Part shown: positions 6,923-64,000 of the stretch, in pieces
How positions within the stretch are numbered: position 1 is the stretch's first letter
How the letters are laid out: each line of letters opens with the position of its first letter
Source of the DNA: Edaphobacter sp.
Lineage (GTDB): Bacteria; Acidobacteriota; Terriglobia; Terriglobales; Acidobacteriaceae
Length of the DNA stretch: 64,000 nucleotides
Assembly (NCBI GenBank): GCA_025462645.1
Contig: JAOAPB010000122.1
Span: 1-64,000 of the forward strand
Direction of reading: 5' to 3'
The notes under the pieces: model-generated
What the model saw: the letters and a program-made list of their open reading frames with translations, nothing else
Database searches by the model: none
What the model was told of the DNA's origin: nothing
Position numbers and translations under genes: made by a program

Positions 6923-6973
6923 CGGCATTCCAAGCCTGTAGCGAACCACCTTTGCATCTCCAAGGGGAGAAAC

Positions 6974-8395: not shown

Positions 8396-8572
8396 GTCTC
8401 AGATCGTGATCCAACAAAAACCGACAAGACGACATCCGCCGATTCCGGAGATGGAGAGCGTGACTCGACAAGCGGCTACAGTTTTGCTTTAATACAAAGC
8501 TATCATCGGGACCCCACCTTCGCAGCTAGGCCCTTAGTGTTCAGATCGGCTCTGTAAGCAAAAGGGGGCGGC

Positions 8573-44932: not shown

Positions 44933-45419
44933 GAGATCGCTCCTCGAGGACAATCGTTCCTATCTGCCAATCGGCGGCTTATAGATGATGTGGGTTCGAT
45001 AGACGCACATGGAAAAGGCTGTATTCTCGCCTTCGTACGGGCAAGAGCACCCCTTCAACATCTGCGAATTGTCAGGCAGGAACGCGTCATGGCGTCACCG
45101 GATCTGACCACTGAAGATCAGCGGTCGCCGACTCAGATTTTTTGGCACATCAGACTGGGGGCAAATAATTCCGCAGCTGGTCGCGGATCGTTTGATTCAA
45201 ATGGTACAGATGTTCCCAAAAGTGATGTAACGTTAACCCGACGTTACATCGGTGTCAAGAGGATTTTCAACGAAGCGGACGAGCGTAGCCAACAATGAAT
45301 AAGAGTTAACCCGCTCGCCAAAACCCCACTTGGGCGACAGCACAGAGCGATTGCACCTTGAGAGAGGTGGAGCATTAAGAGTAGTTGACACTGGCGTGTC
45401 CAGCGACGAACGTAGTCCT
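44933..45419. other. Regulatory intergenic region, receptor / RpiR regulator
   Basis: 487 bases between divergent genes. Contains CTATAA-type sequence about 45 bases upstream of the receptor start (minus strand) and the perfect inverted repeat at 45224-45250. A TTG at 45330 could be an alternative start for the regulator. No other gene seen. Confidence 0.5.
45224..45250. promoter_or_regulatory. Perfect inverted repeat, probable RpiR-family operator
   Basis: GATGTAACGT, 7-base spacer, ACGTTACATC: ten of ten positions pair. It lies between the receptor and the regulator gene, as expected for an operator serving both. No second copy was noticed in the window. Confidence 0.7.
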
Positions 45420-46298: not shown

Positions 46299-46312
46299 CG
46301 CGGAGGTCTTGC

Positions 46313-48439: not shown

Positions 48440-48698
48440 AACGATCACTCAGCCTTATCCTTGCAACCCTGACCCTCCTAACCTCTCACGCCTTGTCCAC
48501 ACCCAGAATCTGGACCTCATCATTCGCGGAGGCTCTCTGATCGACGGATCGAGCTCTCCCGCAAAGAAGGCGGATATCAGCATCGCAGGTGATCGAATCG
48601 TATTCGTCGGCTCCAGTGCTGGAAGAAAAGCTTACCTCACGCCACTACCCGGGTGCCCCATCCTTCGCAGTCTCATCGCGAAGGGTGGGATCGTATAA
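48436..48698 (+). pseudogene. Remnant of N-acyl-D-amino-acid deacylase/amidohydrolase
   Basis: A TTG overlapping the S9 stop, with AAGGAG upstream, begins a clear signal peptide (KRSLSLILATLTLLTSHALS) that runs into a stop at 48540. From 48498 another frame continues NLDLIIRGGSLIDGSSSPAKKADISIAGDRIVFVG, the N-terminal beta-sandwich of D-aminoacylase/dihydroorotase-like amidohydrolases, then degenerates at a GGGTGCCCCATCC-type palindrome and stops at 48698. So there is one frameshift after the signal peptide and loss of the entire catalytic barrel (about 450 residues). The intact ancestor was evidently the third gene of the RpiR-S9 operon. Confidence 0.8.
48657..48689. repeat. REP-like palindrome at the truncation point
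   Basis: CCCATCCTTCGC (48657-48668) pairs with GCGAAGGGTGGG (48678-48689), one mismatch. It lies where the amidohydrolase reading frame ends and between convergent genes, so it may also act as a terminator. Confidence 0.7.
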
Positions 48699-48723
48699 CG
48701 TCCCGAGCCGCCTCTTCAACAAG

Positions 48724-51333
48724 CTACTTCGGCCAGGAGATACGCACCTGCTGACTGACAAATCCAGAGCCCTGCGGAAACGTGACCTTCAGCTTCTCTC
48801 CCGAACGCTCCGCTCCTTCGACCTTTACTCCTGCATCGCCCTTGCCTCGCGTAGGCGGACCATTCCTGCGAAGGAAAAGCTCCGCCGTTGTTCCGGCAAC
48901 GCCCTCCAGCGTCAGCGCAAGACTGCTGGCTTGATACGACTCCTCAACCACACGCGGCTGGTGGGTGCTCGATCCAACCTCGGGCAGCTCCTGCCCATTA
49001 AGGCTCACCTCCACCGGAGGCAACGGCAGTGTTAGAGCATGCACCGCAGTAGCGCGATCCCGACAGGCGCTGATCGCAGCATCCGGCTGTCCATTGAGAC
49101 ACAGCACCGTCTCCTGTGCCGACCGAACCGTCGCCAGCAGATGCCCACCCTCGCGCTTCAGCGTGACCGCATACAAATCATCGCCAACCCGCACATGATT
49201 CAACTCCGCGAAGTCCCAGCCGGCTGGAAGATGCGGCTGCAATCGAAGCGTGCGATGCACGGCATCCGCCTCAACCCCAAAAAGACCGCGAATAGCTGGC
49301 GCCAGAACCATAGCCGACGACCACAGCTGGTGCGCGCTGCTCCGACCCAGCGGCTGGAAGAACTGTCCGGAGATCACCTCCGTGACGAACCCCGGATCCT
49401 GCGCCCACGTAAGGTCAAGGTTGCGCATCAACGCCGCATATCCGGCAAGCGGTCGCCCACCGCGATACTGCGCCAGCGAAGCCCATCCCGTAAACAGCGG
49501 CCACACCGAACCCTGGTGATAGCTGATCGGATCGTACACCGCAGCCTTGTCGCTCACCGAGCGCACCCCCCAATCCGTGGCGAAGTCGTGCGAAGCCCAG
49601 CTCGATAGCATCGCCTCCGGCTTAGGCAGCGATGCCCCGGCGCTCCACAGGGCCACACTCGGAAACACAGTCAGTGTCTTGTCGTAGCTTCCATCGCTAT
49701 TGCGGCTGAACGCATAACTCCCGTCGCTCTGCCGATAGCTCGCAACCACCTCTCCAATGTGAGTCGCCTGCGCCGCCGCACTGGAGGCCAGAGCCTCATC
49801 CTGCATCAGCTTCGCAAGCTCCGAGACCGCTGCGCTCGATGTTTGATCAAGCGAGGCAAGGTAGATCTCCTGGTGCGGCATCTTCGGCGGCCATGCCTCC
49901 ACCCATCCAGTGCCCTCGCTGTTGTCATAGACTCCATCACCGTCGGAGTCGTGCGCGCGGTCGAAGGCATAGGCCTTCTTCACTCCATCCCAATGCGCTC
50001 GCAGGAACTCCACATCGCCAGTCGTGCGAACATAGTCGGCAATCGCCATGATGAAGAGTGGAGTCGCATCCGCCGCAGCGTACTCGTAACCGAGCCTGGA
50101 CCAATCGAGATCGCCATGCAGCGCCCCCGCCGTCAGCGAGAACTCGTGCATCATCTTGCCGTCGGCACGCTGCCTCTTCGCCAGAAACTCCAACGCCTGC
50201 TTCGCCAGCGCCCGGTCCCCATAGCTGTTCACCGCATAGAGGCTCCACAAGGTGTCGCGGCCAAAGTACCAGCCGAACCCAGGCCGGGTCGAATCGAACG
50301 ATGGATACCACCCCGCGACCAGCCCCACCTCATCGCCCGTGCGCACTTTGCTCTGCTCAATGGCGATCTCCGCCCATCGCAACGCCGCATCGAAGTGCGG
50401 GTCCGGCGTATGAACGCTCAGCCGCTGATCGAAGAAGTGGTCGTAGTACGCTCGCGTCTGTCGATAGATCTCAGGCAGCGCACTCGCAGTGGCAACAAGC
50501 CGAGCCTGCATCGCCGCGACAGCAGCGGCAGAGTTCCTCTCGCCCGGCTGGCTCACCTCCGCGATAAGCGGAAAGAACCGCCCCTGATCCGCCTTCGGAT
50601 CGAAGTGAACCTTGAACTGAAGTGGCAGTGCCTGCGGGCGCTCCTGATAGGGAGCCATCACTCCCGGCGCCGCATTCGGCATCCCCACCATGCCGAAGTT
50701 CTCAGGATTATCCGTGGAGAGCACAAACACCCCACCGCTGCCCATCGGAATCCAGCTCGTCGAAGGCCTGCCGAACGTGGGAGCAGGCCACTGCTGCACC
50801 ATCGAAGGCTCAATCGAGATAGTGAGCACCGCAGGAAGAATCGACTCGATCTCAAAAAAGATAATCGCGCCCTTGGCAGGATTCCCCTCCCCCGCAGGCA
50901 CGAACATATGCTGCCGCACTGTAATGGCGGCATGCGAATAAGTGATCGTCGTATGGTCCGGCTGCACATCGATAGCCGCAGCTGCAGCATTCAAATCGAT
51001 CGGGACAGGGTACCCGGCAAGCTCCGCTGTCATATGCAGATTACTGAAGACCTTCGTCGGCAGAGCCCACAGCTCAACGCTGCCGTTCTGCAGACCAAGA
51101 ATCGCGCCGCTGGATCCAGTCACCGTAAAAGGGTGCTGGGGTTGCACCGCCTGATGAATAACGAGAGGACCGGCTGACAGGGGAAACGGCGCAGCAGGCT
51201 GCAGCGTCCCTTGCGCAAAGGCAGAGCAGAGAATCGCAAATGGGACAAAGAGAATGCCGGACGTGAGACTGCGACGATATCTTGAATCGTTCCTGGTCAT
51301 GAAGGGGGAGCTCGCTCCTGAGCGCAAAGACAT
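48724..51333 (-). CDS. Secreted (alpha/alpha)6-barrel glycoside hydrolase, glycogen-debranching-like
   Basis: 869 residues (ATG at 51333; codon 12 at 51300 is an alternative). A signal peptide (RRSLTSGILFVPFAILCSAFAQ) precedes an N-terminal beta-domain (about 40-280). The helical barrel (about 300-720) has GWYFGRDTLWSLYAVNSYGDRALAKQAL, equivalent to the GRDT motif of debranching enzymes; DGVYDNSEGTGWVEAWPP; and YHQGSVWPLFTGW. A C-terminal beta region completes it. It belongs to the GH63/GH15/GDE clan; exact substrate unclear, possibly an alpha-glucan or rhamnosyl glycan. The gene is 97 bases downstream of a receptor gene on the same strand, suggesting a uptake-plus-hydrolysis pair. Confidence 0.82.
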   Translation of the reverse strand: MSLRSGASSPFMTRNDSRYRRSLTSGILFVPFAILCSAFAQGTLQPAAPFPLSAGPLVIHQAVQPQHPFTVTGSSGAILGLQNGSVELWALPTKVFSNLHMTAELAGYPVPIDLNAAAAAIDVQPDHTTITYSHAAITVRQHMFVPAGEGNPAKGAIIFFEIESILPAVLTISIEPSMVQQWPAPTFGRPSTSWIPMGSGGVFVLSTDNPENFGMVGMPNAAPGVMAPYQERPQALPLQFKVHFDPKADQGRFFPLIAEVSQPGERNSAAAVAAMQARLVATASALPEIYRQTRAYYDHFFDQRLSVHTPDPHFDAALRWAEIAIEQSKVRTGDEVGLVAGWYPSFDSTRPGFGWYFGRDTLWSLYAVNSYGDRALAKQALEFLAKRQRADGKMMHEFSLTAGALHGDLDWSRLGYEYAAADATPLFIMAIADYVRTTGDVEFLRAHWDGVKKAYAFDRAHDSDGDGVYDNSEGTGWVEAWPPKMPHQEIYLASLDQTSSAAVSELAKLMQDEALASSAAAQATHIGEVVASYRQSDGSYAFSRNSDGSYDKTLTVFPSVALWSAGASLPKPEAMLSSWASHDFATDWGVRSVSDKAAVYDPISYHQGSVWPLFTGWASLAQYRGGRPLAGYAALMRNLDLTWAQDPGFVTEVISGQFFQPLGRSSAHQLWSSAMVLAPAIRGLFGVEADAVHRTLRLQPHLPAGWDFAELNHVRVGDDLYAVTLKREGGHLLATVRSAQETVLCLNGQPDAAISACRDRATAVHALTLPLPPVEVSLNGQELPEVGSSTHQPRVVEESYQASSLALTLEGVAGTTAELFLRRNGPPTRGKGDAGVKVEGAERSGEKLKVTFPQGSGFVSQQVRISWPK

Positions 51334-51430
51334 TCTCGTCTACGGCTAGGCCAAAGGGTTGAGAAAATTGCCAGACGAGTTGAGGGGCTGCCGGCGAAAG
51401 AACCAGCAGCCCTCACGTTGAGAGAACAGA

Positions 51431-54400
51431 CTAGAACGCGACGCGGAAGGCAAACTGGATCTGCCGCATAGGAACGTTCGGGTCAAGATTGCTGATAACG
51501 CCGCCATTTGAGCAGTCCACGCACCGCGCTCCCGACGAATTGGGAAGATCCAGCGCAGGATGATTGAACAGATTGAACACCTGGAACTGGAACTGGCCAT
51601 TCACCCGCTCCGTGATTGGAATGTCCTTCAGCAGAGACGCGTCAGCCATGAACTCACGCGGTCCCCGAAAGGAGTTCCGTCCAACGTTGCCGAAGGTGCC
51701 GAACGCCGGCATCAGGAAGGCACCCGAGCTGGTCGGCGAGCCGACAGGACTCGACATCGGCGTAAAGAGCTGAACCGTATGCGTCACAGGATTGTAGCCG
51801 CCCGCATGCACGTTGAAGCCTGTACCCTTATTGGGACGGCAGTCGCTGCTCCGGCCCGGACCATTGAAGTTCGTATCCAGGTCCTGCTGCAGAGCGCACT
51901 CGGCAAACGTAGGCGTAAAGGGCTGACCGCTCTCATACGTCGTCGCTCCGCTCAAGCTATAGCCGCCAACCAGGTAGTCCATCCAACGGCTGCTATGTGA
52001 CAGGAACATCCGATTCCTGCCGAACGGCAGCTGATACAGACCGCTCAACACGAAGATGTTCGTGCGATTCGTATCGTTCGGTCCGTAGCTCACGCGCGGA
52101 TAACGTGCGAACACTGCATCGTTGGCATAGTTCATCGCCTTCGACCAGGTATAGTTCGCGTTGAACTGCAACCCATGTGAGAAGCGCTTGTCGAACTTCG
52201 TCTGCAGCGCATGGTAGTGCGCATTACCCGCTGGAGCCGCCGACGTCATGCCATTGCTGCAGCAGACGGTCGGCACGCCGTTATAGGTGCCATGAAACTG
52301 GTTGTAAAAAGGTCGCCGCTGCGCGATATCACCCGAAGCAAGTTCAGCCGGCGTAGACGCAAGCACCGGTCCATTCAAGTCATACCCATACGTCTCGCCC
52401 GGATAGATGCGTTCCGCATGATTACCGACATAAGCAATCTCGAACGTAGTATTAGCTCCAAGCTGCTGCTGCACCGTTAGGTTCCACTGGTCGACCTTGG
52501 GAAGTTGAATTCTCTCCGGCCGGAACTGCGGATTGAACGTATCGCTCAACGGAATAATCCCGTTCGAAGGCACAAACGGAGCCGCCGGCCTCGCCGGAGG
52601 AGCCGCCAGCGTCGTTGCATACTGTCCAAACGCGTTATTCGCGTTGATGTCTTCATTCGCGAGCACCGGCAGATTGTGCGTCAGCACGCTTCCGAAGATC
52701 GTCCCGAAGTAGCCGACGTTGTCATACACCTGAGAGAAGCCTCCGCGAACCACCGTATTCGGCAGCACCTGATACGCAAAGCCGAACCGGCCCGCGAGGT
52801 TCGTGTAGTCCATCTTCTGGCCGCCGTTTGTGGCGATGCCATTGACACCGGCAACCCGCGTCCCACCCGAAGCGATAGAGGCGAATCCGCCCTTACCCGT
52901 TCCATTCACCGTCTCGGGATAGATGATGTCCCATCGAACTCCATAGTTCACCGTCAGCTTCGGTGTCACCCGATAGCTATCCTGCCCATAGAACGCGAGC
53001 CGCTTCTGCCGGTTCGCCGCATCGTTCTGGTACACGTCGAAGCGCTGAAACTCATTGATCTGCCCGAACAGCAGTGAAGCCAGACCGCTGCCCGCGCCGA
53101 CCGATCCACTCGGAGCAGCGGTCGAACCATTGTTGAAGTTCAGCACGCCCGTCCGGTTGTTATCGCTGGCATTGCGGAGATTCATCGCATACCGCACATC
53201 CCCGCCGAACTTGATCGTGTGCTTGCCCAGGATCTTCGTCCAGTTATTCGCCAGCTGATACACCTGCTCGCTCTCCAGCAGAGGGCAGTTGCAGCCCTGG
53301 TCGCCGAAGTTGCTGATGCTGTGGTCGCTGATATTGAACGACGGCAGGCCGCTCGTATCGCTCACCGTGTTCAGGTTCGGAATACCCGCTGCGGTGGCAG
53401 GCGTCGTGCCCACCGAGAACTTGTTCTCCGCAACGTGATAGTTCAGGTAGCCCAGCCGCACATCGGTCAGCAATCCTGAGTTCACCGCCCAGTCAACCCC
53501 CAGCGCTGCGCTCTGATTCTGTACATTGGACGTGCCCGACGTATTGCCGATGCCGAAGCCCTGTCCACCGGCAGCGCCGAAGGCAGGAACACCCAGCAAC
53601 CGGTACAGCGCATAGTCATATCGCCCGAACGCGCTTATCCTGTCGTTGATCCTGTAGTCCAGGCGAACGTCTGCCTGGTCGCCGTTGTTCGATCCCGTGC
53701 CCGAAGCGGCATAGTTGTTCTGTGTCGTAGAGGAAGAGGTCGTATTCGGCGCAGGCAGTTGACGAAGGAAAAACAACGCCTGCGGAGAGAGAGCCGAAAC
53801 TGGAACGGCATTCGGAGCATAGGCAACCGGTGTTTTACTGCCCGAGGTCGGGTAGTTATAGATAGCCCCGCTCGTCACGTACTGGCTCAGGTCGCAGGTC
53901 GTGCTTCCCGGCGCCAGGCAGGTATTGCGAACCGTGTTCGTCGGAACCGACTGCAGGAAGCTCGTCCCCAACCGCTGGCGCAGCCCCTGGTAGTCCATGA
54001 AGAAGAAGGCCTTGTTCTTCATGATCGGCCCGCCCAGCGATCCCCCGAACTGGCTGTACAAGGCGCTCGGAAGAAAACGCCCGGTCACAGGGTTTGGAGT
54101 CGAGTTCGCAAACGGATCGCGAGCCTGCTGTGCATCGCTGTGCCGAAACCAGAACGCATCCCCGTGGAAATCATTGCTGCCCGACTTCGTGCTTGCGCTG
54201 ATAATGCCGCCCGCCGCGCCGCCAAACTCCGCGTCGTAGTTCTGCGTCGTCACCTTCATCTCGCCGATCGAGTCCAGCGTCGGGTTGATCACGATGATTC
54301 CCAGCACCGGGTCGCGGTTATCCGTCCCATCCAGCAGAAATCCCTGCACGCCGTAGTTGGAGCCGTTAGAGTTCAGCGCAATGCCCCCCTGCGGGTTCTC

Positions 54401-54928
54401 CGGCCCCTGGATGTTGAACGACGAGTGCTGCATCCCTGGGGTCAGCAGCGCGAACGTGGTGAAGTTGCGTGTCAGGTTCGGCAGCGCCTGGATGGAGCGC
54501 TCGTTCAAGATCTCCGACACCTCGGCCCGGTCCGTCCTCAGCGCCGGAACCTCGGAGGTCACAGTCACCGACTGCGAGGCCCCCGCAACCTGTAGTACGA
54601 CGTCTACCTTCTGGGACATGCCGGCATGAAGCTCCACACCCGTAGCCTGCCCGGGAGCGAACGTACCCGACTCCACCTTGAGGCTGTACACATCGGGAAT
54701 CAGGTTGTTCACCTGCCAGAATCCCTCTCCATTGCTCTGAGTCACGGACTCCGTTCCCTTGCCGACGTCTGTTACCGTCACCTTCGCATTTGGGACAATC
54801 GCCCCCGTGTTGTCCGTAACCGTTCCATACAGCGATCCGTAGATCGCCTGTCCATACCCGGTTCCGCTCAGCATAGCCACCGCTAGGACCAAAATCCCGA
54901 GGTATACCTGCTTTATAAATGACTTCAT
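51431..54928 (-). CDS. Oar-like TonB-dependent outer-membrane receptor
   Basis: 1165 residues from the ATG at 54928 (GGAGG 6 bases upstream); 13 upstream in-frame codons are rejected. A signal peptide (FIKQVYLGILVLAVAMLSG) is followed by the regulatory domain (GSLYGTVTDNTGAIVPNAKVTVTDVGKGTE), a plug (NYDAEFGGAAGGIISASTKSGSNDFHG) and a barrel ending IQFAFRVAF. It precedes the (alpha/alpha)6 hydrolase gene on the same strand and is divergent from the membrane-anchored putative regulator gene. Likely imports products of, or substrates for, the hydrolase (inference). Confidence 0.9.
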   Translation of the reverse strand: MKSFIKQVYLGILVLAVAMLSGTGYGQAIYGSLYGTVTDNTGAIVPNAKVTVTDVGKGTESVTQSNGEGFWQVNNLIPDVYSLKVESGTFAPGQATGVELHAGMSQKVDVVLQVAGASQSVTVTSEVPALRTDRAEVSEILNERSIQALPNLTRNFTTFALLTPGMQHSSFNIQGPENPQGGIALNSNGSNYGVQGFLLDGTDNRDPVLGIIVINPTLDSIGEMKVTTQNYDAEFGGAAGGIISASTKSGSNDFHGDAFWFRHSDAQQARDPFANSTPNPVTGRFLPSALYSQFGGSLGGPIMKNKAFFFMDYQGLRQRLGTSFLQSVPTNTVRNTCLAPGSTTCDLSQYVTSGAIYNYPTSGSKTPVAYAPNAVPVSALSPQALFFLRQLPAPNTTSSSTTQNNYAASGTGSNNGDQADVRLDYRINDRISAFGRYDYALYRLLGVPAFGAAGGQGFGIGNTSGTSNVQNQSAALGVDWAVNSGLLTDVRLGYLNYHVAENKFSVGTTPATAAGIPNLNTVSDTSGLPSFNISDHSISNFGDQGCNCPLLESEQVYQLANNWTKILGKHTIKFGGDVRYAMNLRNASDNNRTGVLNFNNGSTAAPSGSVGAGSGLASLLFGQINEFQRFDVYQNDAANRQKRLAFYGQDSYRVTPKLTVNYGVRWDIIYPETVNGTGKGGFASIASGGTRVAGVNGIATNGGQKMDYTNLAGRFGFAYQVLPNTVVRGGFSQVYDNVGYFGTIFGSVLTHNLPVLANEDINANNAFGQYATTLAAPPARPAAPFVPSNGIIPLSDTFNPQFRPERIQLPKVDQWNLTVQQQLGANTTFEIAYVGNHAERIYPGETYGYDLNGPVLASTPAELASGDIAQRRPFYNQFHGTYNGVPTVCCSNGMTSAAPAGNAHYHALQTKFDKRFSHGLQFNANYTWSKAMNYANDAVFARYPRVSYGPNDTNRTNIFVLSGLYQLPFGRNRMFLSHSSRWMDYLVGGYSLSGATTYESGQPFTPTFAECALQQDLDTNFNGPGRSSDCRPNKGTGFNVHAGGYNPVTHTVQLFTPMSSPVGSPTSSGAFLMPAFGTFGNVGRNSFRGPREFMADASLLKDIPITERVNGQFQFQVFNLFNHPALDLPNSSGARCVDCSNGGVISNLDPNVPMRQIQFAFRVAF

Positions 54929-55153
54929 CCTTGCCTCCGAAAACGGCATCCAAATGAGAGTGACCACACTTATCGTTCCGATTCGCAGACGCGAGCCACC
55001 GGATCGATAGGGTCAGGAGGATGCGGCTTAGTCCGCACCTCTCGCAGTCCCACTTATGAGCCGCCGTAAACCATGCTCTTTGTTAACAACACTTGAATAC
55101 GTCGTTCACCGTGATTTGACCGTGAAACGGCACGTGAAATACTAGTTGCTGGC

Positions 55154-56440
55154 ATGAAAATCGCGTCGGAACACAACGAGCAAGTGATTGATTTCCCTGG
55201 AGATCCACGCTGGGAGCTAGTCCAGCGCCTTATTGAAAGCCCACACCTCGTCGGCTCTGCTCGTCTGCGCGATTTTCTGCTCCATGTCGCAGCCTGCGCC
55301 ATCCGACAGACCCCCGAAGAGGCCACCGAGCAACAGATAGGAATTCAGGTCTTCCAGCGCTCTCCCGGCTTCAACTCCAGCGAAGACAGCATCGTTCGCA
55401 GCCAGGCTCGACTCCTGCGGCTCAAGCTCTCTGCCTACTTCAACGCCGAGGGAGCCTCCGAACCGCTCATCATCGAGATCCCCAAAGGGCATTACCTGCC
55501 CGTCTTTCTTCCGGCCCATACCTCTCCGCATGACCCTCCGGCTTCAACCCCCGTCAATGCGGCAGCCGCACCACATGAAACTCCGGCAGCCCCTGTCGAA
55601 GAGCTCTCACTCAGCAACATCCTCCCATACACTCCGGTAAAACGAAGGGGATTCACCAATCGTCATTGGCAAATCGCAGCCGGTATCTTTTTGGTTCTGA
55701 TCCTCATTGCCCTTACCGGATTCCGTACTTGGCATAGATATCCGACACCTTCCAAACCGTTGAATCAACTCTGGTCGCCCTTCCTCACTGGCGATCCTCC
55801 GCTGGTCATCTACAGCAACGCTGTCTTCATAGGCGATGCCAAACGCGGAATGCGCTATGCCGCTGGCGACGGCTCCGAAAACCAGTCACCCGACCGCGTG
55901 GACAACTACACCGGAATCGGAGAACTCAGTGCCGTTCATGAGCTTACCCGGCTCTTCGACCAGCGCCATGCCGAGTTCATCCTCAAGCGCAGCCCCCTGG
56001 TCACCTGGGACGAGGCCCGCTCCCGCAACCTCATCTTCATCGGCTCCATCGCGGAGAACGGCTCCCTCAAGGAGCTCCCCTCCACCCAGGACTTCACTCT
56101 GGTAGCCACTGCGGACGCCGCCGGAATCGTCAATCACCATCCCAGGCCCGGTGAGCCCGAGACCTGGCTTCGCCCCGAACACCCTCTCACCAGGGACTAC
56201 GCCATCGTCGCCCTCCTGCCGGGCATCCAGCCCGATCTCCATATGTTCGTCTTCAGCGGACTGACAACGCTGGGAACGCAGGCCGCGGTGGAGTACGCCT
56301 CAAACCCGGAGGCCGCAGCCGAACTCCTGCGCTACGCCACCTCAGATGGTAGAGTCCACAACTTCGAGGCCCTCCTCGAGGTAAGCATCAGCGGCGGAGT
56401 CCCCCTGCAACCCAGACTGCTCTCCATGCGCGTCCACTAG
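55154..56440 (+). CDS. Membrane-anchored protein with putative N-terminal DNA-binding domain
   Basis: 428 residues. The N-terminal 120 residues (RLIESPHLVGSARLRDFLLHVA, EEATEQQIGIQVF, SSEDSIVRSQARLLRLKLSAYF, EPLIIEIPKGHYLPVF) are a conserved module I associate with acidobacterial genes near Oar-like receptors; its pattern resembles a ToxR/CadC-like winged helix, though this is not proven. A Pro/Ala-rich linker (about 120-155) leads to one transmembrane helix (about 172-190) and a 235-residue extracytoplasmic domain with LVIYSNAVFIGDAKRGMRYAAG. This layout suggests a one-component membrane sensor controlling the divergent receptor. No homologue of known function recognised. Confidence 0.6.
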   Translation: MKIASEHNEQVIDFPGDPRWELVQRLIESPHLVGSARLRDFLLHVAACAIRQTPEEATEQQIGIQVFQRSPGFNSSEDSIVRSQARLLRLKLSAYFNAEGASEPLIIEIPKGHYLPVFLPAHTSPHDPPASTPVNAAAAPHETPAAPVEELSLSNILPYTPVKRRGFTNRHWQIAAGIFLVLILIALTGFRTWHRYPTPSKPLNQLWSPFLTGDPPLVIYSNAVFIGDAKRGMRYAAGDGSENQSPDRVDNYTGIGELSAVHELTRLFDQRHAEFILKRSPLVTWDEARSRNLIFIGSIAENGSLKELPSTQDFTLVATADAAGIVNHHPRPGEPETWLRPEHPLTRDYAIVALLPGIQPDLHMFVFSGLTTLGTQAAVEYASNPEAAAELLRYATSDGRVHNFEALLEVSISGGVPLQPRLLSMRVH

Positions 56441-56445
56441 CTACC

Positions 56446-56625
56446 GTCATCCTGAACACATAGCTACCATCGCACGCCATCTACCGTCATCCTGAGCGGA
56501 CAGCTATCGTTATCATTCTGAGCGAACAGCTATCGTTATCATCCTGAAGGGGCAGCTACTCGTCATATCCTGAAGGGGATTAGTACCGTCATCCTGAGCG
56601 CAGCGAAGGATCCCGAAGGACTTCA
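56446..56625 (+). repeat. Cluster of dispersed GTCATYCTGAGCG-type repeats
   Basis: At least five partial or full copies of (G)TCATCCTGA or TCATTCTGAGCG, at about 56446, 56484, 56510, 56538 and 56588. Only the last has the full GCGCAGCGAAGGATCCC continuation. Confidence 0.8.
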
Positions 56626-56753
56626 CCCATCACAACCGCCCAACATTTTTCAACAATCATTCCCCACCGCCTTGATGTTGCTTCCTCTTCCCCGACCCGC
56701 CACAAACCTCATAAAGGAAGGCATGCATCGAACGATCGGCGGTAACCCAAAAA

Positions 56754-57048
56754 CCTGTCAAGCCCCCGACTCACTTAAGTTGCACTAAATCAATAACATA
56801 CACATGGCATACTAGTTTCCTCCTATTCGCTATACTTTAAACAGAGTCAAAGAAAGAGCCTCGGCCAAAAACCGGGGCTCATTTATTTAATAGTTAAGGA
56901 GCCTATAAATGAGAATTCGCGCATAAGTAGTTTAGTTGCACGAATTTGTCCGTAAGTCCTTTATATGGACGACTTTGCAGCCAACATATTTCTTAACTTA
57001 CAGATAATGAATAAGTTATTCCAAGGTACCCCCCGGGGGGTACCCCCC
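56754..57048 (+). repeat. Composite non-coding element, copy B
   Basis: CCTGTCAAGCCCCC end (56754-56767), TGGCATACTAGTTT block (about 56805), TATACT (56831-56836), hairpin GAGCCTCGG/CCGGGGCTC (56856-56880) with one G-T type irregularity, two abutting 29-base repeats (56921-56949, 56950-56978), and a 20-bp perfect palindrome, GGTACC-CCCCGGGG-GGTACC (57025-57044). Confidence 0.8.
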
Positions 57049-57266
57049 AATGAAAAGGAAAATATTGAAACGTTCCCAGGAGAAGCCACACTATCCCTTC
57101 GTAGTCGGTTTCGAACCGGTTGCTCTGTCCTCGCCCCACAGGGAAGCTGATTCTCTAACCTGACGGGAGACAGGATAGAGATCGTACCGCTATGTTTTTC
57201 CTGATCTGGCGTTCTCGATATCCGTTGACGCCAGACTGCCCCTTTTTGGTTCCTCTGCCTACAGGA

Positions 57267-57293
57267 AACCCGGCGTGCGCAAGCGCCGGGGTT
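57267..57293 (-). terminator. Terminator after the CHAT operon
   Basis: CCCGGCG (57269-57275) pairs with CGCCGGG (57284-57290). On the minus strand it follows the CHAT stop by about 33 bases and is trailed by TTTCC. Confidence 0.65.
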
Positions 57294-57325
57294 CTCTCAT
57301 GGAGCAAACCTCATTCGCGAAAGGC

Positions 57326-59860
57326 TCAACCACCCGAATACAACAGGAACGGAGCCCAGTACAGCGGCTTGCGGAACACTCCGCTTGAGTGCAGCATCGC
57401 AAGCTTCGCCGATCGCAGCGCCGCATCCGGCTGGTTGCCTTTGGCCAGCTCGCCATAGAGATGGTCCATCAACTGCGGAGTCGATACATCGCTGACCTCC
57501 CACATGGCTCCGATGACATGATGCGAGCCGGCACGCAGAAAGGCCCAGGCCAATCCCACCAGGCCCTCGCCCGTGTACTGCCGCTGCCCCGAGCCGTAGC
57601 AGGATGAGAGCGTCACCAGATCCGCATTAAGATTCTGGCTGAGAATGTCTCGCGCATAGAGCTTGTAAGCGCTGGCATCGCCCCGGTTCCGCGAGAGGAC
57701 AACCGCGGAGTCAAGCGGCGTAGTCATGTTCGCCGTAGCATGAGCGACGAAGTGGATGTACGAGAACTCGCCAGGCTGATGGCTCCGGTACGCATCCGGA
57801 GACGCCTGCGCCCCGGTCAGCACCGTCCGATGGTCCGCAGCGAAGTGACCCGCGATATTGGCCACCTCAGCGGAGGCATTGGCCAGCTTCGCGTACTCCT
57901 CATCGCGATAGACCGGGTCCCCCATTAAAAGGATGCGCCGGTTCGCATATCGTGTCTCCCTCTCGCCACTCGCGGAGAGCAGCCGCAGCGACTTCGCATT
58001 TGTAACCGTAACGTCCTCGATCCAGAAGTGAGGAGTCTCAGCTCCTGCAAGAAGCGTCTCGAAGTTGAGGCTGCTGAGTCCCTCGTCCCCGACGATGAAG
58101 ACCCTGCCGCCCTTGCCGATCAGCCTCTCCGCCGGCTTGACCAGCGCCTCATAGAGTTCGCGCCCAGGCCCACCCGGCTGGGTCAGAACATCCTTCGAAG
58201 CCAGGATCGCCTTCGTGTGCGACTGAATGAGCGGAAGAATGGTCTCGCTCCCCGGCAGCTCATAAAATTGCTGGCGAGCCGCGGTAATAGCCCAAAGATA
58301 GGAGACCTTTGGCCGCAGCGAGTACACCAGAATCGTAGCTTTCGTCCGAGCCGCAATCGCCCGCGCATTCAACCTCCGAGCTCTTTGAAAACCTTGATTC
58401 TCACCCTTCGCAGGAGAGAGCCTCAGTCCATCCGCCAGAGCCTCAGCCCGGCTCGCATCCACCACACTCAAAGCCTCATCGGCTCGATGCTCGCGGACCA
58501 GATAATCCGTGTAACTCACATACAGATCGCTCCCATTCTCCAGGAACGGAAGCGTCGACTCGACACTGGTAAGCGACGACCTCTGCCGCTGAAACGTCTC
58601 GATCGATCGCTGAAACCACCGCCCCGCCTCCGCCGTCTGCCCAGACCCCGAGTAGATACGAGCCAGCGTACTCTCAGCCTCCCACCGCAGCGACGGAACA
58701 TCCACCGCCCGCCCCTCAAGCTGAAGAAGCGTCTTGATAGAACCCTGCCTATCCCCACGTTTATCAAGAAGCAGGGCATCCAACAACATAGGCTCAAGCC
58801 CCGCCCTCTCACTCTTTCGCAAAGCAGCAATACCATTCGCCTCACGAACATGGACGCCAGCCTCATCCAACTTATTCAACCGCAGCAGAAGAAACCCAAG
58901 ATTCACATGCGCATCGAGAATCTCCTCCTGATTTTGAATGGACTGGGCGAGACTCAACGACCGTTCATAGAATGATCGTGCCGCATTCAGTTCGCCAAGC
59001 CGATACTCACTTAGTCCGGCATTGTTCAACGATCTAACCTGATCGATCGTTGAGCCCAATCCGGCTGCCTGCTTTTCAGCCTCATTAAAATTGGAGAGTG
59101 ACCGTTGAAAATCACCGGTCTTGTAATAGACAAACCCGAGATTACCAACAGATTTCTCGAGTACCAGCTTGGCCCCAATAGCACGTGCCAACGTAGATGC
59201 ATCACCGAACCGTACCAACGCATCCCCGTAGTGCTCTTCCTGCAGAGCAACTACGCCCAGATTCATCAGCGCATTTGTCTCAAAAACTTGATTCCCACTG
59301 AGGCGAGCCGCTACCAGACTTGCTTGCAACACTCGCTCTGCGTTGTCGAATTTTCCCTTCTTGATATAGATAATTCCTCGGGATCCATAAACTTCGGCTC
59401 GCAGGGCTCCTTCTGGACATTGACGTTCAGCCTCCAGCACAGTCTGTTCTGCTTGATCGAGGTGGCCGAGCCAAGCTTGTGCAATGGAAAGAAGAACCTT
59501 TCGTCTTATTTCGGACTCAAGATTGGGATTAGCAGGGAGTGGCTGTTGGAGAAGCGGGAGGGCATTGTTGCTCTCACCTTGATAGATCAACACCTTTGCC
59601 AGTTCGAGTTGAAATACATTGGCCCACTCTGGGCGGCTCGATGCAAAATACTGGTAGGCCGCCTCAGAGTGCTGTCGTGCCTTAGAGAGCTCCCCCGAGA
59701 GAAACTCCTTCTCGATCCCATCAAACGTTGAATCAGGCATGATCTGTGGCTCACGCCTACACCCGATCAATACCAGCGAAACAATGCATCCGATCGTTAC
59801 GGGATCGTGTATCCATTGGAATCGGCGGTTGCGAAGCTCATGATTCCTTTCGCAGGGCAT
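57326..59860 (-). CDS. TPR-CHAT caspase-like protease, predicted lipoprotein
   Basis: 844 residues from the ATG at 59860, which lies 64 bases inside the end of the upstream gene. A hydrophobic segment ends in a lipobox LVLIGC (Cys34), predicting a lipoprotein. About residues 50-430 are TPR-like helical repeats (WANVFQLELAKVLIYQGE, AEVYGSRGIIYIKKGKFDNAERVL, ALMNLGVVALQEEHYGDALVRF, DAHVNLGFLLLRLNKLDEAGVH). The CHAT peptidase domain (about 540-844) has His707 in YIHFVAHATANM and Cys754 in VTLSSCYGSGQ, and ends KPLYWAPFLLYSGG. CHAT proteases are caspase/separase relatives; in type III-E CRISPR the TPR-CHAT protease cleaves a protein that controls an ECF sigma factor. Last gene of the sigma operon. 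Confidence 0.9.
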   Translation of the reverse strand: MPCERNHELRNRRFQWIHDPVTIGCIVSLVLIGCRREPQIMPDSTFDGIEKEFLSGELSKARQHSEAAYQYFASSRPEWANVFQLELAKVLIYQGESNNALPLLQQPLPANPNLESEIRRKVLLSIAQAWLGHLDQAEQTVLEAERQCPEGALRAEVYGSRGIIYIKKGKFDNAERVLQASLVAARLSGNQVFETNALMNLGVVALQEEHYGDALVRFGDASTLARAIGAKLVLEKSVGNLGFVYYKTGDFQRSLSNFNEAEKQAAGLGSTIDQVRSLNNAGLSEYRLGELNAARSFYERSLSLAQSIQNQEEILDAHVNLGFLLLRLNKLDEAGVHVREANGIAALRKSERAGLEPMLLDALLLDKRGDRQGSIKTLLQLEGRAVDVPSLRWEAESTLARIYSGSGQTAEAGRWFQRSIETFQRQRSSLTSVESTLPFLENGSDLYVSYTDYLVREHRADEALSVVDASRAEALADGLRLSPAKGENQGFQRARRLNARAIAARTKATILVYSLRPKVSYLWAITAARQQFYELPGSETILPLIQSHTKAILASKDVLTQPGGPGRELYEALVKPAERLIGKGGRVFIVGDEGLSSLNFETLLAGAETPHFWIEDVTVTNAKSLRLLSASGERETRYANRRILLMGDPVYRDEEYAKLANASAEVANIAGHFAADHRTVLTGAQASPDAYRSHQPGEFSYIHFVAHATANMTTPLDSAVVLSRNRGDASAYKLYARDILSQNLNADLVTLSSCYGSGQRQYTGEGLVGLAWAFLRAGSHHVIGAMWEVSDVSTPQLMDHLYGELAKGNQPDAALRSAKLAMLHSSGVFRKPLYWAPFLLYSGG

Positions 59861-60615
59861 CCGAGTTCCATCCGCATCATGGTTAGCCGGAAAGCACTGT
59901 GATCGAGAACCAGTTCGCCAAGAAAGATATTGCCAAAGTCGGGCACCGTAATCACGTGGCCAACTGAGCTTGCATCCTCTACTCCCTGAACTTCTTCCAC
60001 CAGGGAGCATAGGATGTACCCTCTCTTCTCGCGCTCTTCCGCTGACTGTACCCAGCCATACCGTGCCTTGAGCCATTCCGGAACGTCTTTCGCTTCCGTA
60101 ATTCTACGGTTGTGCACAGTGATCTTCTGGATAAATTTCTCATTCTTCGTATGCGGTTGGTCGGGAAACCTTCCGTGGTCGAAGTCGAGCAGATTGAGAT
60201 TCAGCTTCGGATAAACCCTGTGTCCATTAACTCGCAGATTATCGAACTGGACTCCGACGAAAGACACTCTGGGCGTATAGCCTGCCGCGGGATGTTCCAC
60301 CCCCAGCCGCGCTACGATGCGATCGGCCGTGACCACCTCCAACACATTCAGGTGCTCGACCACGGAGGTCGTCAGCGTCGTCCAATTGCCGGTCTTCTCG
60401 TTCTTCGCGCCCGTGATATGGGAGTAAGCGTTTTTGGTCGAGACGATAGGGTCTAAGCGATAAGCCTCATGACTCGCCGTTGTGACCCCGCCGGCCTGAG
60501 CCAACGACGAGGATGCGTCGGTGGTGATGATGTGTTCGAAGGGATGGGTAATATAGCCACCCACCGGGCTCGCATCGGCATGGTAGTAGAACTGTCTCTG
60601 TGTACTGGCGTCCAT
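59797..60615 (-). CDS. Unrecognised 272-residue protein in sigma/CHAT operon
   Basis: No signal peptide or membrane segment. The N-terminus (FYYHADASPVGGYITHPFEHIITTDASSSLAQAGGVTTA) and SYVGVQF-like SFVGVQFDNLRVNGHRVYPKLNL region read as a soluble beta-rich protein; FGNIFLGELVLDHSAFRLTMMRMELGCP near the end resembles a sheet-forming C-terminal domain. Residues about 180-205 (ITEAKDVPEWLKARYGWVQSAEEREKRG) are charged and could be an exposed loop. It starts 21 bases after the anti-sigma stop and overlaps the CHAT start, so its expression is tied to both. It may be the protease substrate or a structural partner, but this is a guess. Confidence 0.75.
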   Translation of the reverse strand: MDASTQRQFYYHADASPVGGYITHPFEHIITTDASSSLAQAGGVTTASHEAYRLDPIVSTKNAYSHITGAKNEKTGNWTTLTTSVVEHLNVLEVVTADRIVARLGVEHPAAGYTPRVSFVGVQFDNLRVNGHRVYPKLNLNLLDFDHGRFPDQPHTKNEKFIQKITVHNRRITEAKDVPEWLKARYGWVQSAEEREKRGYILCSLVEEVQGVEDASSVGHVITVPDFGNIFLGELVLDHSAFRLTMMRMELGCPAKGIMSFATADSNGYTIP

Positions 60616-60636
60616 TCGTTCTCTGTCCTCAGTAAG

Positions 60637-61332
60637 TTATTTAGAAATCTTCAATTGGAACCTGTACCTGGCAAGGTCTTCCAGCTTACCATCGGAACTG
60701 TCAATCGCCGGTAAACCTTGGATTCGAAAGATATTCAGTCCTTCTTTTGTTCTGTCCGTCGGCACATGAATCAGCAGCGCATCGCTGACCTGTTGGGACG
60801 AAACGCTGGTCTGCCAGACCAGAGCTCCCGAGGGAGAGTACAACGAACACAGATAACTTCCGAAATCACTTCGTGCTGGGATATCGATGGATAGGAGGAA
60901 AGCTCCATGCTCTGGGGCAACGATGCTGGGAACTGAGTCGCCACGGGCTCCAGCATTCGCGAGGACAAGGTTATTTAACACAGCGGGAGTCTCCGCTCGT
61001 GCAATCTCCCGCTGCATTCGTGGCAGCAGAACAAACGACTCAACAATCACGACGACCAAACAAGCCGCCAGTGCCGGAGCCAGAAACCGTGGACTAGAGA
61101 ACCATGAGGTCCACTTGGGAGCTCTCTCCGCCTTGATAGCCGCAACAACTCGCGTGGGCACCTTGAGCTCATTGCGCGCGGCATCAATAAAGGTGGTGCC
61201 GGCCTTCAGATCCATGACGCACTGTGGACATTCGAAGAGATGTTCCTCGAATCTGTCCAAAGCCGCGCCGCTGAGTTCACCCAACAGGTATCGTTCCACG
61301 GCCATTTCCTGGAGTGCATCCTGATGGTTCAT
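60637..61332 (-). CDS. Membrane zinc-finger anti-sigma factor
   Basis: 231 residues. The N-terminal zf-HC2/ASD motif HLFECPQC (His31, Cys35, Cys38) lies after AVERYLLGELSGAALDRFEE. One transmembrane helix (about 84-104, FLAPALAACLVVVIVESFVLL) separates it from a periplasmic beta-rich domain (GAFLLSIDIPARSDFGSYLCSLYSPSGALVWQT). The periplasmic part could sense an envelope signal or be cleaved. Start supported by GAGG 9 bases upstream. It lies 86 bases after the sigma stop and 21 bases before the unknown gene. Confidence 0.88.
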   Translation of the reverse strand: MNHQDALQEMAVERYLLGELSGAALDRFEEHLFECPQCVMDLKAGTTFIDAARNELKVPTRVVAAIKAERAPKWTSWFSSPRFLAPALAACLVVVIVESFVLLPRMQREIARAETPAVLNNLVLANAGARGDSVPSIVAPEHGAFLLSIDIPARSDFGSYLCSLYSPSGALVWQTSVSSQQVSDALLIHVPTDRTKEGLNIFRIQGLPAIDSSDGKLEDLARYRFQLKISK

Positions 61333-61418
61333 CTCACGAGACCTCTATCTCTCCATAGTGCGGGTCGTCCGATAATCGTTTCATTCTTTGGATCATTATC
61401 CTTCCGTAAAGCCCAATC

Positions 61419-61991
61419 TCAAGGTTTTCCGGCTTCTAGCCGCTTGGAATACAACTCACGAAACGAGCCCTTCGCCCGATGCAGCAGCACTCGGAGGTAC
61501 TCTCGTTCCACGCCCATCTCTCGGCATACCTCCTCCTTGTCGCGCTCCTCTAAAAAAACTGCTCGCAGCAGATTTTGGTCGCGCTGCTTCAGATCGCCTA
61601 GAACGCGTCGGACCAGATCGCGAGTGTCATGTGACATGACCATGCTCAAGGCATCGGGCTTCGTCTCAACAAGCCGCTCCGCAACCTCATCCTCCAATGG
61701 CCCTACCCGGCCCGAGGAACGGTACTGCTCCATCAGAACATTGTTGCAGATCGAGTTCACCAATGGACCTAGCCGCTCGGCATTGCGAAGGCCGCCATCG
61801 CTTCGGATCAGCGAGAGCGTTCGCGTAAACGTCTCCTGTTTAACATCTTCGATCAGTTCCGGTGCACGAAGACGCGAACGCAGCTTCAGCGTAATCAGTT
61901 CTGTGAAGTAGTTGATGAAGTGCTGCTCGGTATACGCATCCCCCGCTCGCAACTTGCTCACATAGGAGACGTCAAATGCCTGGAAATCCAC
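61419..61991 (-). CDS. ECF-type RNA polymerase sigma factor
   Basis: 190 residues from a GTG at 61991 (AGAGG upstream). Region 2 (about 20-90): FINYFTELITLKLRSRLRAPELIEDVKQETFTRTLSLI. Region 4 (about 125-180): LVRRVLGDLKQRDQNLLRAVFLEERDKEEVCREMGVEREYLRVLLHRAKGSFRELY. Regions 1 and 3 are missing, as in ECF sigma factors. First gene of a four-gene operon with its anti-sigma factor, so it probably drives its own operon, although no promoter consensus is visible that I could confirm. Confidence 0.9.
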   Translation of the reverse strand: MDFQAFDVSYVSKLRAGDAYTEQHFINYFTELITLKLRSRLRAPELIEDVKQETFTRTLSLIRSDGGLRNAERLGPLVNSICNNVLMEQYRSSGRVGPLEDEVAERLVETKPDALSMVMSHDTRDLVRRVLGDLKQRDQNLLRAVFLEERDKEEVCREMGVEREYLRVLLHRAKGSFRELYSKRLEAGKP

Positions 61992-62290
61992 TGAACGTCC
62001 TCTTTACCTGAGTCAAAATCTTACACGGTGAACCCTTGGGCCCAGGAGATGCTCAACTAAACAAATTAGAAGTCTTCCTAGTCCATTGATACTTAACGTC
62101 CGTGTCGTCGGATCTTGCTGCAAAACCAGTTCTGATCACTCCAAAATTTCTTTGAAACGATACTGCGGCTTTTACCACTATCCCTTTGAAGCGAGTTCGA
62201 GTGACGACCAGATGTTGTGAGCCGGTATATCTGATCCGAATATGGTCAGTCCTCACCGATGAACACCTGGCCATCGATAAGGGATTTGAC

Positions 62291-62506
62291 ATGTTCGCAG
62301 ATTACAGCACTTTTCTCATTACTATTGGAAGCTTGGCCTGTGTAGCAGTCTTGGGTTGGTTCTTTGAGTCCATCCATGGGGCATCTGCTTCAAATGACGA
62401 CAACCTATCCTCTGGTGAAGACCCTGCCCAACGACAACGCGCCAGCCTGTATATGATAGGCGTCCTTCTGACGATGGGTGCTTCCGTCATCTCTGTCATC
62501 CTCTAA
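62291..62506 (+). CDS. Small two-helix membrane protein
   Basis: 71 residues from ATG 62291 (AAGGGA 7-8 bases upstream). Hydrophobic segments at about 4-22 (starting [17 protein letters not shown]) and 53-71, joined by an acidic/polar loop ([21 protein letters not shown]). The frame is open from 62186, but that part is not needed. No family recognised. It ends 70 bases before a cold-shock gene. Confidence 0.5.
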
Positions 62507-62576
62507 AGATTTCTGTGCGGCATCTATTCCGTATCAGCATGGCACCCCATCCATTCCATCAAAGGAAGTGATACCT

Positions 62577-62813
62577 ATGACTCAGTACAAAGGCATAGTG
62601 AAGTGGTTCAATAATGTAAAAGGCTATGGTTTTCTAGGATACGACGGAGGGACCGATGTCTTTGTTCATTTCAGCTCTATCCAAAAAGAAGGCTATAAGT
62701 GCCTCAAAGAGGGAGACGAGGTGACCTTCGAGATCGTACAGGGAGAGAAGGGCCTGCAGGCCGACCGCGTAACCCGGCAGACGATCTCGCAGACACTAGC
62801 GAGGCAAAACTGA
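62577..62813 (+). CDS. Cold-shock domain protein
   Basis: 78 residues from ATG 62577 (AAAGGAAG upstream). It is a single [52 protein letters not shown], with RNP1 (KGYGFL) and RNP2 (VFVHF). These bind single-stranded RNA/DNA and act as RNA chaperones. Ten extra C-terminal residues ([12 protein letters not shown]) exceed the minimal family length. Upstream reading open from 62478 is spurious. Confidence 0.93.
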
Positions 62814-63006
62814 AGATTCTGTGATCTCACGAGCAAGACAAGTTACAAGATAGCCAAGCAGGAAACCCCGAAGCGATTGGTTGGTCCTGCAAATAGCAGA
62901 CAGGCAAATGGCTTGTATTGCGCGATTGATACGCACTAAACCCTCTATACGGTATATTTCTTGTGTCTTATTCTCAGAGAGAATGCCAACTGGCAAAAGC
63001 GTAGAG

Positions 63007-63921
63007 ATGCAGAAAATAAGTCCGTCTGAACTGGCAAAGAAGATCGGTGAAGGCCTTCTTTCCTTCCCCGTCACGCATTTCATGAAACGCTCTGCCTTTG
63101 ATGAAGATCGCTATCGTGAACATATTGCATGGCTGCTCGACCATCGTCCCGCCGGGTTGTTTGCAGCCGGAGGAACCGGAGAGTTCTTCTCCCTGACCCA
63201 AGGGGAGTTCTCCGCCGTAGTGACCGCCGCTGTCCGCGAGACCGCAGGCCGTGTTCCTGTTCTTGCCGGCTGCGGATATGGCACAGCCATGGCCAAAGAA
63301 TTTGCCAAAGCTGCTGAGGATGCGGGTGCCGATGGCATCCTCCTTCTGCCTCCCTATCTGGTGAACTCCGACGCCGCCGGTCTTATGGCTCACACAGAGG
63401 CCGTCTGTGCAGCGACGAACCTGGGTGTTATCTTCTACAACCGAGATAACGCCATCATCGACGAAGCCACGTTGGAGCAGCTCTGCGACCGGTGTCCAAA
63501 TCTGATCGGCTTCAAAGATGGCTATGGCGATATTGAACTAATGACTCGTATCTATACACGCCTGGGCGACCGTCTGACGTATATCGGCGGACTACCCACA
63601 GCAGAGACCTTCGCTTTGCCCTATCTCGAGATGGGCGTGACCACCTACTCTTCCGCGATCTTCAACTTCCTGCCCAACTTTGCGCAGCAATTCTATTCGG
63701 CGGTGCGTCAACGCGATCATGAAAAGGTCTACTCCGATCTGCGGGAGTTTGTGCTGCCATATATCTCCATTCGAAATCGGCGGAAGGGGTATGCCGTCTC
63801 GATCGTGAAGGCCGGTATGACAGCAATCGGGCGTCCGGCTGGGCCAGTCCGTTCTCCCCTCATCGATCTTGATCCAGCAGAGCTCGCCGATTTGAAGAAG
63901 CTGATCGGAGACCGCTCCTGA
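63007..63921 (+). CDS. kdgD: 5-dehydro-4-deoxyglucarate dehydratase
   Basis: Dehydrates and decarboxylates 5-keto-4-deoxy-D-glucarate to 2-oxoglutarate semialdehyde in glucarate/galactarate breakdown; a member of the DapA-like class I aldolase family. 304 residues, like characterised enzymes (about 303), which is why ATG 63007 is preferred to 62983. [33 protein letters not shown] (Tyr144) and [15 protein letters not shown] (Schiff-base Lys170) are present, with [16 protein letters not shown] near the end. The next gene begins 5 bases after the stop and looks like its permease. Confidence 0.93.
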
Positions 63922-63926
63922 CCACC

Positions 63927-64000
63927 GTGCCAGCCCTCGTACCCGAGCCGCGGCAGACGCGTGTGCGCTATCTGATCGTCCTCATGCTCTTTATCGCCAG
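63927..64000 (+). CDS. Start of MFS permease, probable glucarate/galactarate transporter (3' cut)
   Basis: GTG at 63927, 5 bases after the kdgD stop. The 24 codons in the window read PALVPEPRQTRVRYLIVLML and then FIA, the opening of anion:cation symporter-type MFS permeases such as GudP/GarP, which typically begin RTRVRYLILLMLFI. Together with kdgD it indicates a sugar-diacid uptake and breakdown operon continuing past the window. Confidence 0.7.
   Translation, partial: MPALVPEPRQTRVRYLIVLMLFIA

Follow-up and report, generated by a model that had tools for sequence, protein, structure and literature searches.

The question raised by this locus is whether a caspase-like protease can be wired to a sigma factor away from any CRISPR array. 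The window, meaning the whole stretch of DNA that we analyzed, is the first 64,000 nucleotides of contig JAOAPB010000122.1 of Edaphobacter sp. (assembly GCA_025462645.1). Near its far end lie four minus-strand genes for, in order, an extracytoplasmic function (ECF) sigma factor, a membrane anti-sigma factor, a 272-residue protein that we call X272, and a tetratricopeptide repeat (TPR)-CHAT protease, separated by 86, 21 and -64 bases. A sequence-only reading had proposed these genes and spacings as a candidate protease-gated transcription switch without CRISPR, and translation together with an open reading frame (ORF) table bears out the layout. We find that the four genes form a real, conserved and jointly inherited unit in many soil acidobacteria. 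The genes are:

61419..61991, minus strand: ECF sigma factor, 190 residues, GTG start (TIGR02937, 43.2 bits; orthologues in 21 of 100 genomes).
60637..61332, minus strand: membrane anti-sigma factor, 231 residues, with a zf-HC2 domain (29.2 bits), one predicted transmembrane helix and an immunoglobulin/fibronectin type III (Ig/FN3)-like outer domain in its AlphaFold2 model.
59797..60615, minus strand: X272, 272 residues, all-beta in its AlphaFold2 model, no signal peptide, apparently a divergent relative of choice-of-anchor P domains (NF040603 matches in relatives).
57326..59860, minus strand: TPR-CHAT caspase-like protease, 844 residues, with an N-terminal lipobox (LIGC) and His707/Cys754 (PF12770, 175 bits).

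What carries this finding is conservation. Our main survey covered 100 genomes, that of the window included, with E-value cut-offs of 1e-20 for the sigma factor, 1e-20 for the anti-sigma profile and 1e-120 for the CHAT profile, and with the best 29 anti-sigma and best 9 CHAT candidates scored per genome; the anti-sigma and CHAT tallies vary with their cut-offs (1e-20 and 1e-120), while those of X272 and sigma do not. At these thresholds 22 genomes have X272, a match to the anti-sigma profile and the CHAT orthologue together, 21 of them also have sigma, and none of the four is found in the other 78; CHAT as a family is commoner, being present in 63 of the 100. The co-occurrence of X272 and anti-sigma has a Fisher p of 1.4e-22, uncorrected for relatedness. 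With X272 on its own as the query, which is how the 22 genomes were found, a CHAT gene follows X272 on the same strand in 21/21 relatives, and the full order sigma, anti-sigma, X272, CHAT is kept in 16. A second scan, of named genomes and again via X272 alone, gave 73 loci, nearly all labelled Acidobacteria (the exceptions are L114, Thermoanaerobaculia, and L115, Luteimonas panaciterrae), with CHAT on the locus stretch in 72, anti-sigma in 72, sigma in 69 and the full same-strand order in 68. Removing 7 copies of genomes already used and adding the 22 gives 88 unique loci. Conservation of the neighbors in relatives was the test that the sequence-only reading had set for itself, and the gene order is kept far beyond chance.

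The same genes stay together in the genome even where the locus has been broken up. Anti-sigma adjoins the X272-CHAT pair in the window, in 21/21 relatives and in 72/73 named loci, and the one named locus without it (L100) is cut by a contig end. In 4 of the 21 relatives (G002, G025, G031, G047) anti-sigma is still nearby but in a rearranged position and the locus has no sigma gene, yet a sigma orthologue persists elsewhere as a lone gene with 54-55% identity. Four named loci have no sigma gene: L059, L100 and L107 are cut by a contig end near X272, and L106 is the rearranged G002. L077 is the one named locus without CHAT, and its genome encodes a full-length CHAT orthologue at another site. 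There are thus five genomes in which sigma (four) or CHAT (one) left the locus yet persists.

The predicted proteins place much of this unit at the envelope. The sigma factor passes the NCBIfam ECF model TIGR02937 by a narrow margin (43.2 bits, cut-off 42.9), and Pfam sigma region 4 scores under its cut-off. The anti-sigma factor has the zinc-finger domain zf-HC2 (29.2 bits, Pfam cut-off 22.2), which is present in all 22 orthologues, and its AlphaFold2 model (mean predicted local distance difference test score, pLDDT, 77) consists of inner helices, a predicted membrane helix at residues 81-114 and a beta outer domain at 136-230. By fold comparison that outer domain is Ig/FN3-like (best VIA Z 8.8, root-mean-square deviation (rmsd) 2.8 over 91 residues), which is a common fold. 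As modeled, then, the locus has what marks class I membrane anti-sigma pairs, namely an ECF sigma model match, a zinc-finger anti-sigma domain, and a predicted single helix with an outer domain, much as had been read from the letters.

The protease reaches 175.2 bits against PF12770 (cut-off 24) and is the one CHAT match in the 6.0-Mb genome of the window. His707 and Cys754, described earlier as intact, are invariant in 22/22 orthologues of the survey and in 82/82 orthologues covering both sites; that alignment had 88 rows, from which five proteins cut at contig ends and one non-orthologue (L077) were set aside, and in 6 of the 82 full-length proteins the pair was found by alignment after a regular expression had missed it. 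An N-terminal hydrophobic segment, defined as a 15-residue stretch around the start with a mean Kyte-Doolittle value of 1.6, is present at 85 of 87 loci. The two below this threshold are L049, just under it, and L087, in which the segment is visible in an assembly with unknown bases. A cysteine follows the segment at 61 of the 87, often in a lipobox-like setting. We predict that TPR-CHAT is exported as a lipoprotein or by a signal anchor, and together with the predicted membrane helix and outer domain of anti-sigma this upholds the envelope link that had been suspected. An apparent X272-CHAT fusion in L087 was rejected because it spans the unknown bases of that assembly.

The 272-residue protein had gone unrecognized. 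A sequence pattern of choice-of-anchor P proteins gave the initial lead, and profile matches followed: 17 of the 22 family members match NF040603 (best E 3.5e-11), and among ten scanned singly 7 match, 6 of them above the cut-off of 27 bits, over their first 120-140 residues. The window copy has no match to this model at E 10. Elsewhere in the 100 genomes, NF040603 matches are limited to two strong members, both in G090, and a weak one in G037. Choice-of-anchor P members typically carry an export signal, and the two in G090 (L153, L167) have signal-like N-terminal segments, whereas no X272 has a signal peptide or hydrophobic N-terminus at any of the 88 loci (highest value 1.48 against 1.6, at L055); in the window its open frame is 279 codons only. 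On profile evidence the X272 family is akin to choice-of-anchor P proteins, as a divergent branch without signal peptides. This identification is new, and it is made for the family, the window copy itself not matching NF040603. X272 and CHAT are thereby predicted to sit in different compartments.

Other searches with X272 gave no family in Pfam, in the PDB by sequence or in PADLOC; a lone Pfam match (E 0.19, one member) was disregarded. The AlphaFold2 model is confident (pLDDT 90.8) and shows strands with a helical insert. It has no confident fold match in the PDB, which does not show a new fold: two Foldseek matches fall below E 0.001 with a template modeling (TM) score of 0.18 and rmsd near 18, and VIA gives at best Z 4.6 (1lsh_B, with an rmsd of 9.0 over 144 residues). 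Bacterial gasdermins, which are similar in size and have CHAT neighbors, were considered; none is among the matches listed, which decides nothing. A Cys203-Cys253 disulphide was dropped as a candidate, the pair not co-occurring in all members. At L113 (about 6932-8401) a second partial X272 match lies directly 3' of the first.

If these genes form a switch, the next question is what the sigma factor reads. Comparison of upstream regions brings out TGAAAC-N17-CAC[CT]AT before anti-sigma where the locus is rearranged and close to the operon in other genomes. Anti-sigma starts, placed by script, were found in 84 unique loci, and the exact form TGAAAC-N17-CA[CT]NAT lies 45-67 base pairs (bp) upstream of the start in 29 of them; mononucleotide shuffles contain 0 exact motifs. 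A matrix built from those 29 loci lifts 52 of the 84 above the 99th percentile of shuffled regions, that is, 23 further loci. ECF sigma factors are reported to require a rigid -35/-10 spacer (PMC6411747). Across the 100 genomes a strict form of the motif has 44 sites in the 22 X272 genomes versus 10 in the 78 others. Reversing the pattern as a control gives 6 and 7 respectively, and X272 genomes therefore also have a slight excess of chance matches. Because the motif was derived from these loci, sites at the operon do not count as independent evidence, but distal sites do; with the 19 sites at the operon or a lone sigma gene removed, a hand count leaves 25 versus 10 (binomial p 6e-10, relatedness not corrected). 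A second strict form, TGAAACG-N16-CACYAT, occurs 65 times in the 22 X272 genomes versus twice for its reversed control, and its three sites in the genome of the window (57066, 61355, 62153) are all at the four-gene locus. In the four lone-sigma loci, and in L077, a sigma-type site likewise stands upstream of the sigma gene. TGAAAC-N17-CA[CT]NAT is thus likely to be the sigma promoter motif, tied to the unit and, by inference, read by the unit's own sigma factor. The anti-sigma-X272-CHAT block has a putative sigma-type promoter site of its own, a point absent from the sequence-only reading, and CHAT is therefore a likely target of the switch as well. The sites and the features around them are:

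61355..61383, minus strand: putative sigma-type promoter site, TGAAACG-N16-CACTAT, 51 bp upstream of the anti-sigma start (motif search).
62153..62182, plus strand: putative sigma-type promoter site, divergent from the operon and facing a small membrane-protein-like ORF and a cold-shock gene (motif search).
57066..57095, plus strand: putative sigma-type promoter site past the CHAT 3' end (motif search).
62291..62506, plus strand: small hydrophobic ORF, 71 residues from ATG, the first ORF past the divergent site (ORF table).
62577..62813, plus strand: cold-shock domain protein, 78 residues, predicted sigma target (PF00313, 88 bits).
57102..57300, plus strand: possible short sigma-dependent transcript with a hairpin end beside the CHAT 3' end (fold z-score -2.46).

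A sigma-70-like extended -10 before the sigma gene, seen by eye in several relatives as TGTANACTT, has only a degenerate counterpart in the window and does not figure in this list.

The genes that follow these sites suggest a small regulon. A cold-shock gene comes after the motif in 10 of the 22 X272 genomes, in two genomic settings: within about 420 bp of the motif and beside the operon (the window, L033, L034), or 31-36 bp downstream of an unlinked motif (G002, G014, G025, G029, G031, G041, G047). None of the 10 motif sites in genomes without X272 has a cold-shock gene within the stretch examined. The small hydrophobic ORF at 62291..62506 matches no Pfam family above its cut-off. In G014, G031 and G041 (loci L237, L238 and L240) a sigma-type site precedes a cluster of secreted repeat proteins, which at L240, the one of the three scanned against the models, includes a C39 peptidase (Pfam, 59 bits, above cut-off) and an outer-membrane protein; this pair resembles FapD and FapF of functional-amyloid export, at scores below both cut-offs (FapD, 99.8 bits, cut-off 330; FapF, 106 bits, cut-off 700). 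Overall, the genes under sigma control are probably its own anti-sigma, CHAT and a few others.

Past the CHAT gene, the stretch 57066-57300 starts with the sigma-type site and continues with about 200 bases that fold strongly (z-score -2.46) and end in a terminal hairpin against the CHAT 3' end. By eye, the layout is similar in L034 and L035. The segment 57102..57300 has no Rfam match and is possibly a small RNA.

How might the protease act on such a circuit? We tentatively favor, at slightly less than even confidence, a self-contained ECF sigma circuit in which exported CHAT acts on the anti-sigma outer domain or on a periplasmic partner of it, thereby releasing or tuning sigma. The membrane anti-sigma factor would hold the sigma factor, and freed sigma would read TGAAAC-N17-CA[CT]NAT promoters, of which the first, before anti-sigma-X272-CHAT, would provide feedback, the second would serve the divergent small hydrophobic ORF and cold-shock gene, and the third would lie past the CHAT gene. 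Exported TPR-CHAT would face the Ig-like outer domain of anti-sigma and could act there, or on a periplasmic partner of that domain, in the manner of a site-1 protease. The predicted topology allows CHAT to meet this outer domain and would keep it apart from X272, and a CHAT that regulates the switch would plausibly have the outer domain, and not X272, as its target. X272, predicted to be cytoplasmic, would more likely pair with the switch's inner half than serve as a substrate of CHAT. A role for CHAT in the switch is favored because the parts are inherited all or none; we infer both cleavage by CHAT and the role of X272. A more specific version is possible, though we would give it decidedly less than even confidence: the exported CHAT lipoprotein may be a dedicated site-1 protease for an ECF anti-sigma factor, the cytoplasmic choice-of-anchor P-like protein a further control element, and the whole a CRISPR-free, envelope-triggered counterpart of Craspase whose sigma serves mainly its own locus and a cold-shock gene.

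Several observations weigh against this proposal. Before anti-sigma, 32 of the 84 loci have no above-null matrix match, and 3 of the 52 matrix matches lie outside the usual -45 to -80 range. The 10 strict sites mentioned above are in genomes without X272, and several sites in X272 genomes (for example at L246, L247 and L250) fall within genes and are probably chance matches. No clear lipobox is present in 26 of the 87 CHAT proteins. G092 (L029) retains anti-sigma, X272 and CHAT, and the ORF in its sigma position matches no sigma model. Evolutionary distances correlate least between X272 and anti-sigma (Spearman 0.69, with 0.84 for CHAT against sigma or anti-sigma), and these values partly reflect shared descent. 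The unlinked CHAT gene of G100 has no sigma-type site before it. Finally, a CHAT gene behind a putative sigma promoter fits an output as well as a trigger.

That last point leads to the rival that survives best, which we regard as possible if somewhat doubtful: CHAT may be an output of the switch and not its trigger. Sigma would then sense envelope stress via the anti-sigma outer domain and induce an exported protease for the clearance or processing of envelope proteins, while sigma itself would be released by a different protease. It is common for anti-sigma genes to be co-transcribed with targets of sigma, and the block that includes CHAT does have a sigma-type promoter site to itself. All-or-none inheritance with anti-sigma, however, suggests a closer link than that of a mere target, and CHAT stays beside anti-sigma and X272 where sigma has moved away. 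The lack of a sigma site at the unlinked CHAT of G100 counts against an output role too.

Another reading, which we consider unlikely, takes X272 as a CHAT substrate like Csx30, its cleavage freeing sigma; the sequence-only reading had offered this as one of its two options. X272 and CHAT are a conserved gene pair, overlapping in the window, and Csx29, a TPR-CHAT protease, is known to cleave a sigma inhibitor (PMC10028731). A membrane anti-sigma factor is already present at the locus, however, and X272 as the cleaved protein is disfavored because the predicted compartments differ, every one of 88 X272 proteins being without an export signal and 85 of 87 CHAT proteins having a hydrophobic N-terminus. 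Least probable of all, and rather improbable in our judgment, is an ordinary ECF sigma/anti-sigma pair that merely shares its transcript with two functionally unrelated genes, with no proteolytic switch. In its favor, ECF pairs with extra genes are common, and a sigma-like ORF adjoins CHAT in only 2 of 20 other CHAT loci sampled in the genus; against it, the parts here are inherited all or none and persist after genomic separation. What stands of the original proposal is a conserved, envelope-linked sigma/anti-sigma/CHAT unit, and what finds no support is X272 as the cleaved protein.

Among known systems, the nearest working parallel to a unit of this predicted makeup is Craspase (Cas7-11, Csx29, Csx30 and CASP-sigma) of type III-E CRISPR, in which, according to PMC10028731, the TPR-CHAT protease Csx29 cleaves Csx30, an inhibitor of an ECF-like sigma factor. 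Both combine a TPR-CHAT protease, an ECF-like sigma and its inhibitor, and both have sigma motifs within sigma's own locus (for Craspase, PMC10028731). Unlike Craspase, the four-gene unit has a CHAT protein predicted to be exported and a membrane zinc-finger anti-sigma factor as inhibitor, and the window CHAT scores only 10.1 bits against the Csx29 model NF041237 (cut-off 300), a score at which it would not count as Csx29. We found no CRISPR-type repeat array in 44000-64000 or onward to contig base 80000, as the proposal of a switch without CRISPR had it; Cas7-11 was not searched for. The only repeat family in 44000-64000 lies between two genes at 56447-56564; its four copies of a 26-base sequence, three of them head to tail, are not CRISPR-like.

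PMC10028731 also names RseA/DegS and RsiW as protease-controlled anti-sigma factors. Like them, the anti-sigma factor here combines a zinc-finger domain with a single predicted membrane helix and an outer domain. The four-gene unit differs in adding a predicted exported caspase-like CHAT and X272, with CHAT as site-1 protease being our proposal. In the ECF54 group CHAT proteins occur near sigma, and proteolytic control has been proposed there without an anti-sigma factor, according to a review (PMC8999054); the likeness lies in the neighborhood genes, an ECF sigma near a CHAT-domain protein, and the difference in the anti-sigma gene that our unit includes in the window, in every relative and in all but one of the named loci. 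PMC7406223 makes no mention of CHAT. As for X272, its relatives resemble choice-of-anchor P proteins through NF040603 and differ from the two G090 members in having no signal peptide. A literature search, with subscription papers mostly outside its coverage, found no report of the four-gene unit.

CHAT genes also occur in other settings. Among 20 other CHAT loci of the genus (L168-L187), an S41-peptidase-like ORF adjoins CHAT in 16 by eye, with 3/3 tested matching PF03572, and an HxxxCxxC ORF is often nearby; the CHAT and S41-peptidase-like pairing looks like another recurrent CHAT system. Two of these loci are without X272 and have sigma-like neighbors. At L169 (8778-10197) the genes after CHAT are a clear ECF sigma factor (TIGR02937, 58 bits) and an HxxxCxxC ORF with no Pfam match. 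At L187 (8916-10294) they are a weak zf-HC2 ORF and a weak sigma-like ORF, which also reaches 31 bits with the sigma model of type III-E CRISPR, where the cut-off is 100. The 10.2-Mb genome of L114 (G101, labelled Thermoanaerobaculia) has 78 TPR-CHAT profile matches, many of them TPR-only and several reaching the CHAT domain.

Why does a unit of this kind matter? In the papers that our search covered, the control of a sigma factor by a TPR-CHAT protease is described only for type III-E CRISPR, and for ECF54 it is proposed only. Here we have a recurrent unit with no CRISPR array nearby, which cultured acidobacteria carry too. With its candidate promoter motif and its few predicted targets, it makes both the CHAT substrates and the link to sigma directly testable. 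If CHAT does act on this switch, Craspase would seem to be a single instance of a broader association between CHAT proteases and sigma factors.

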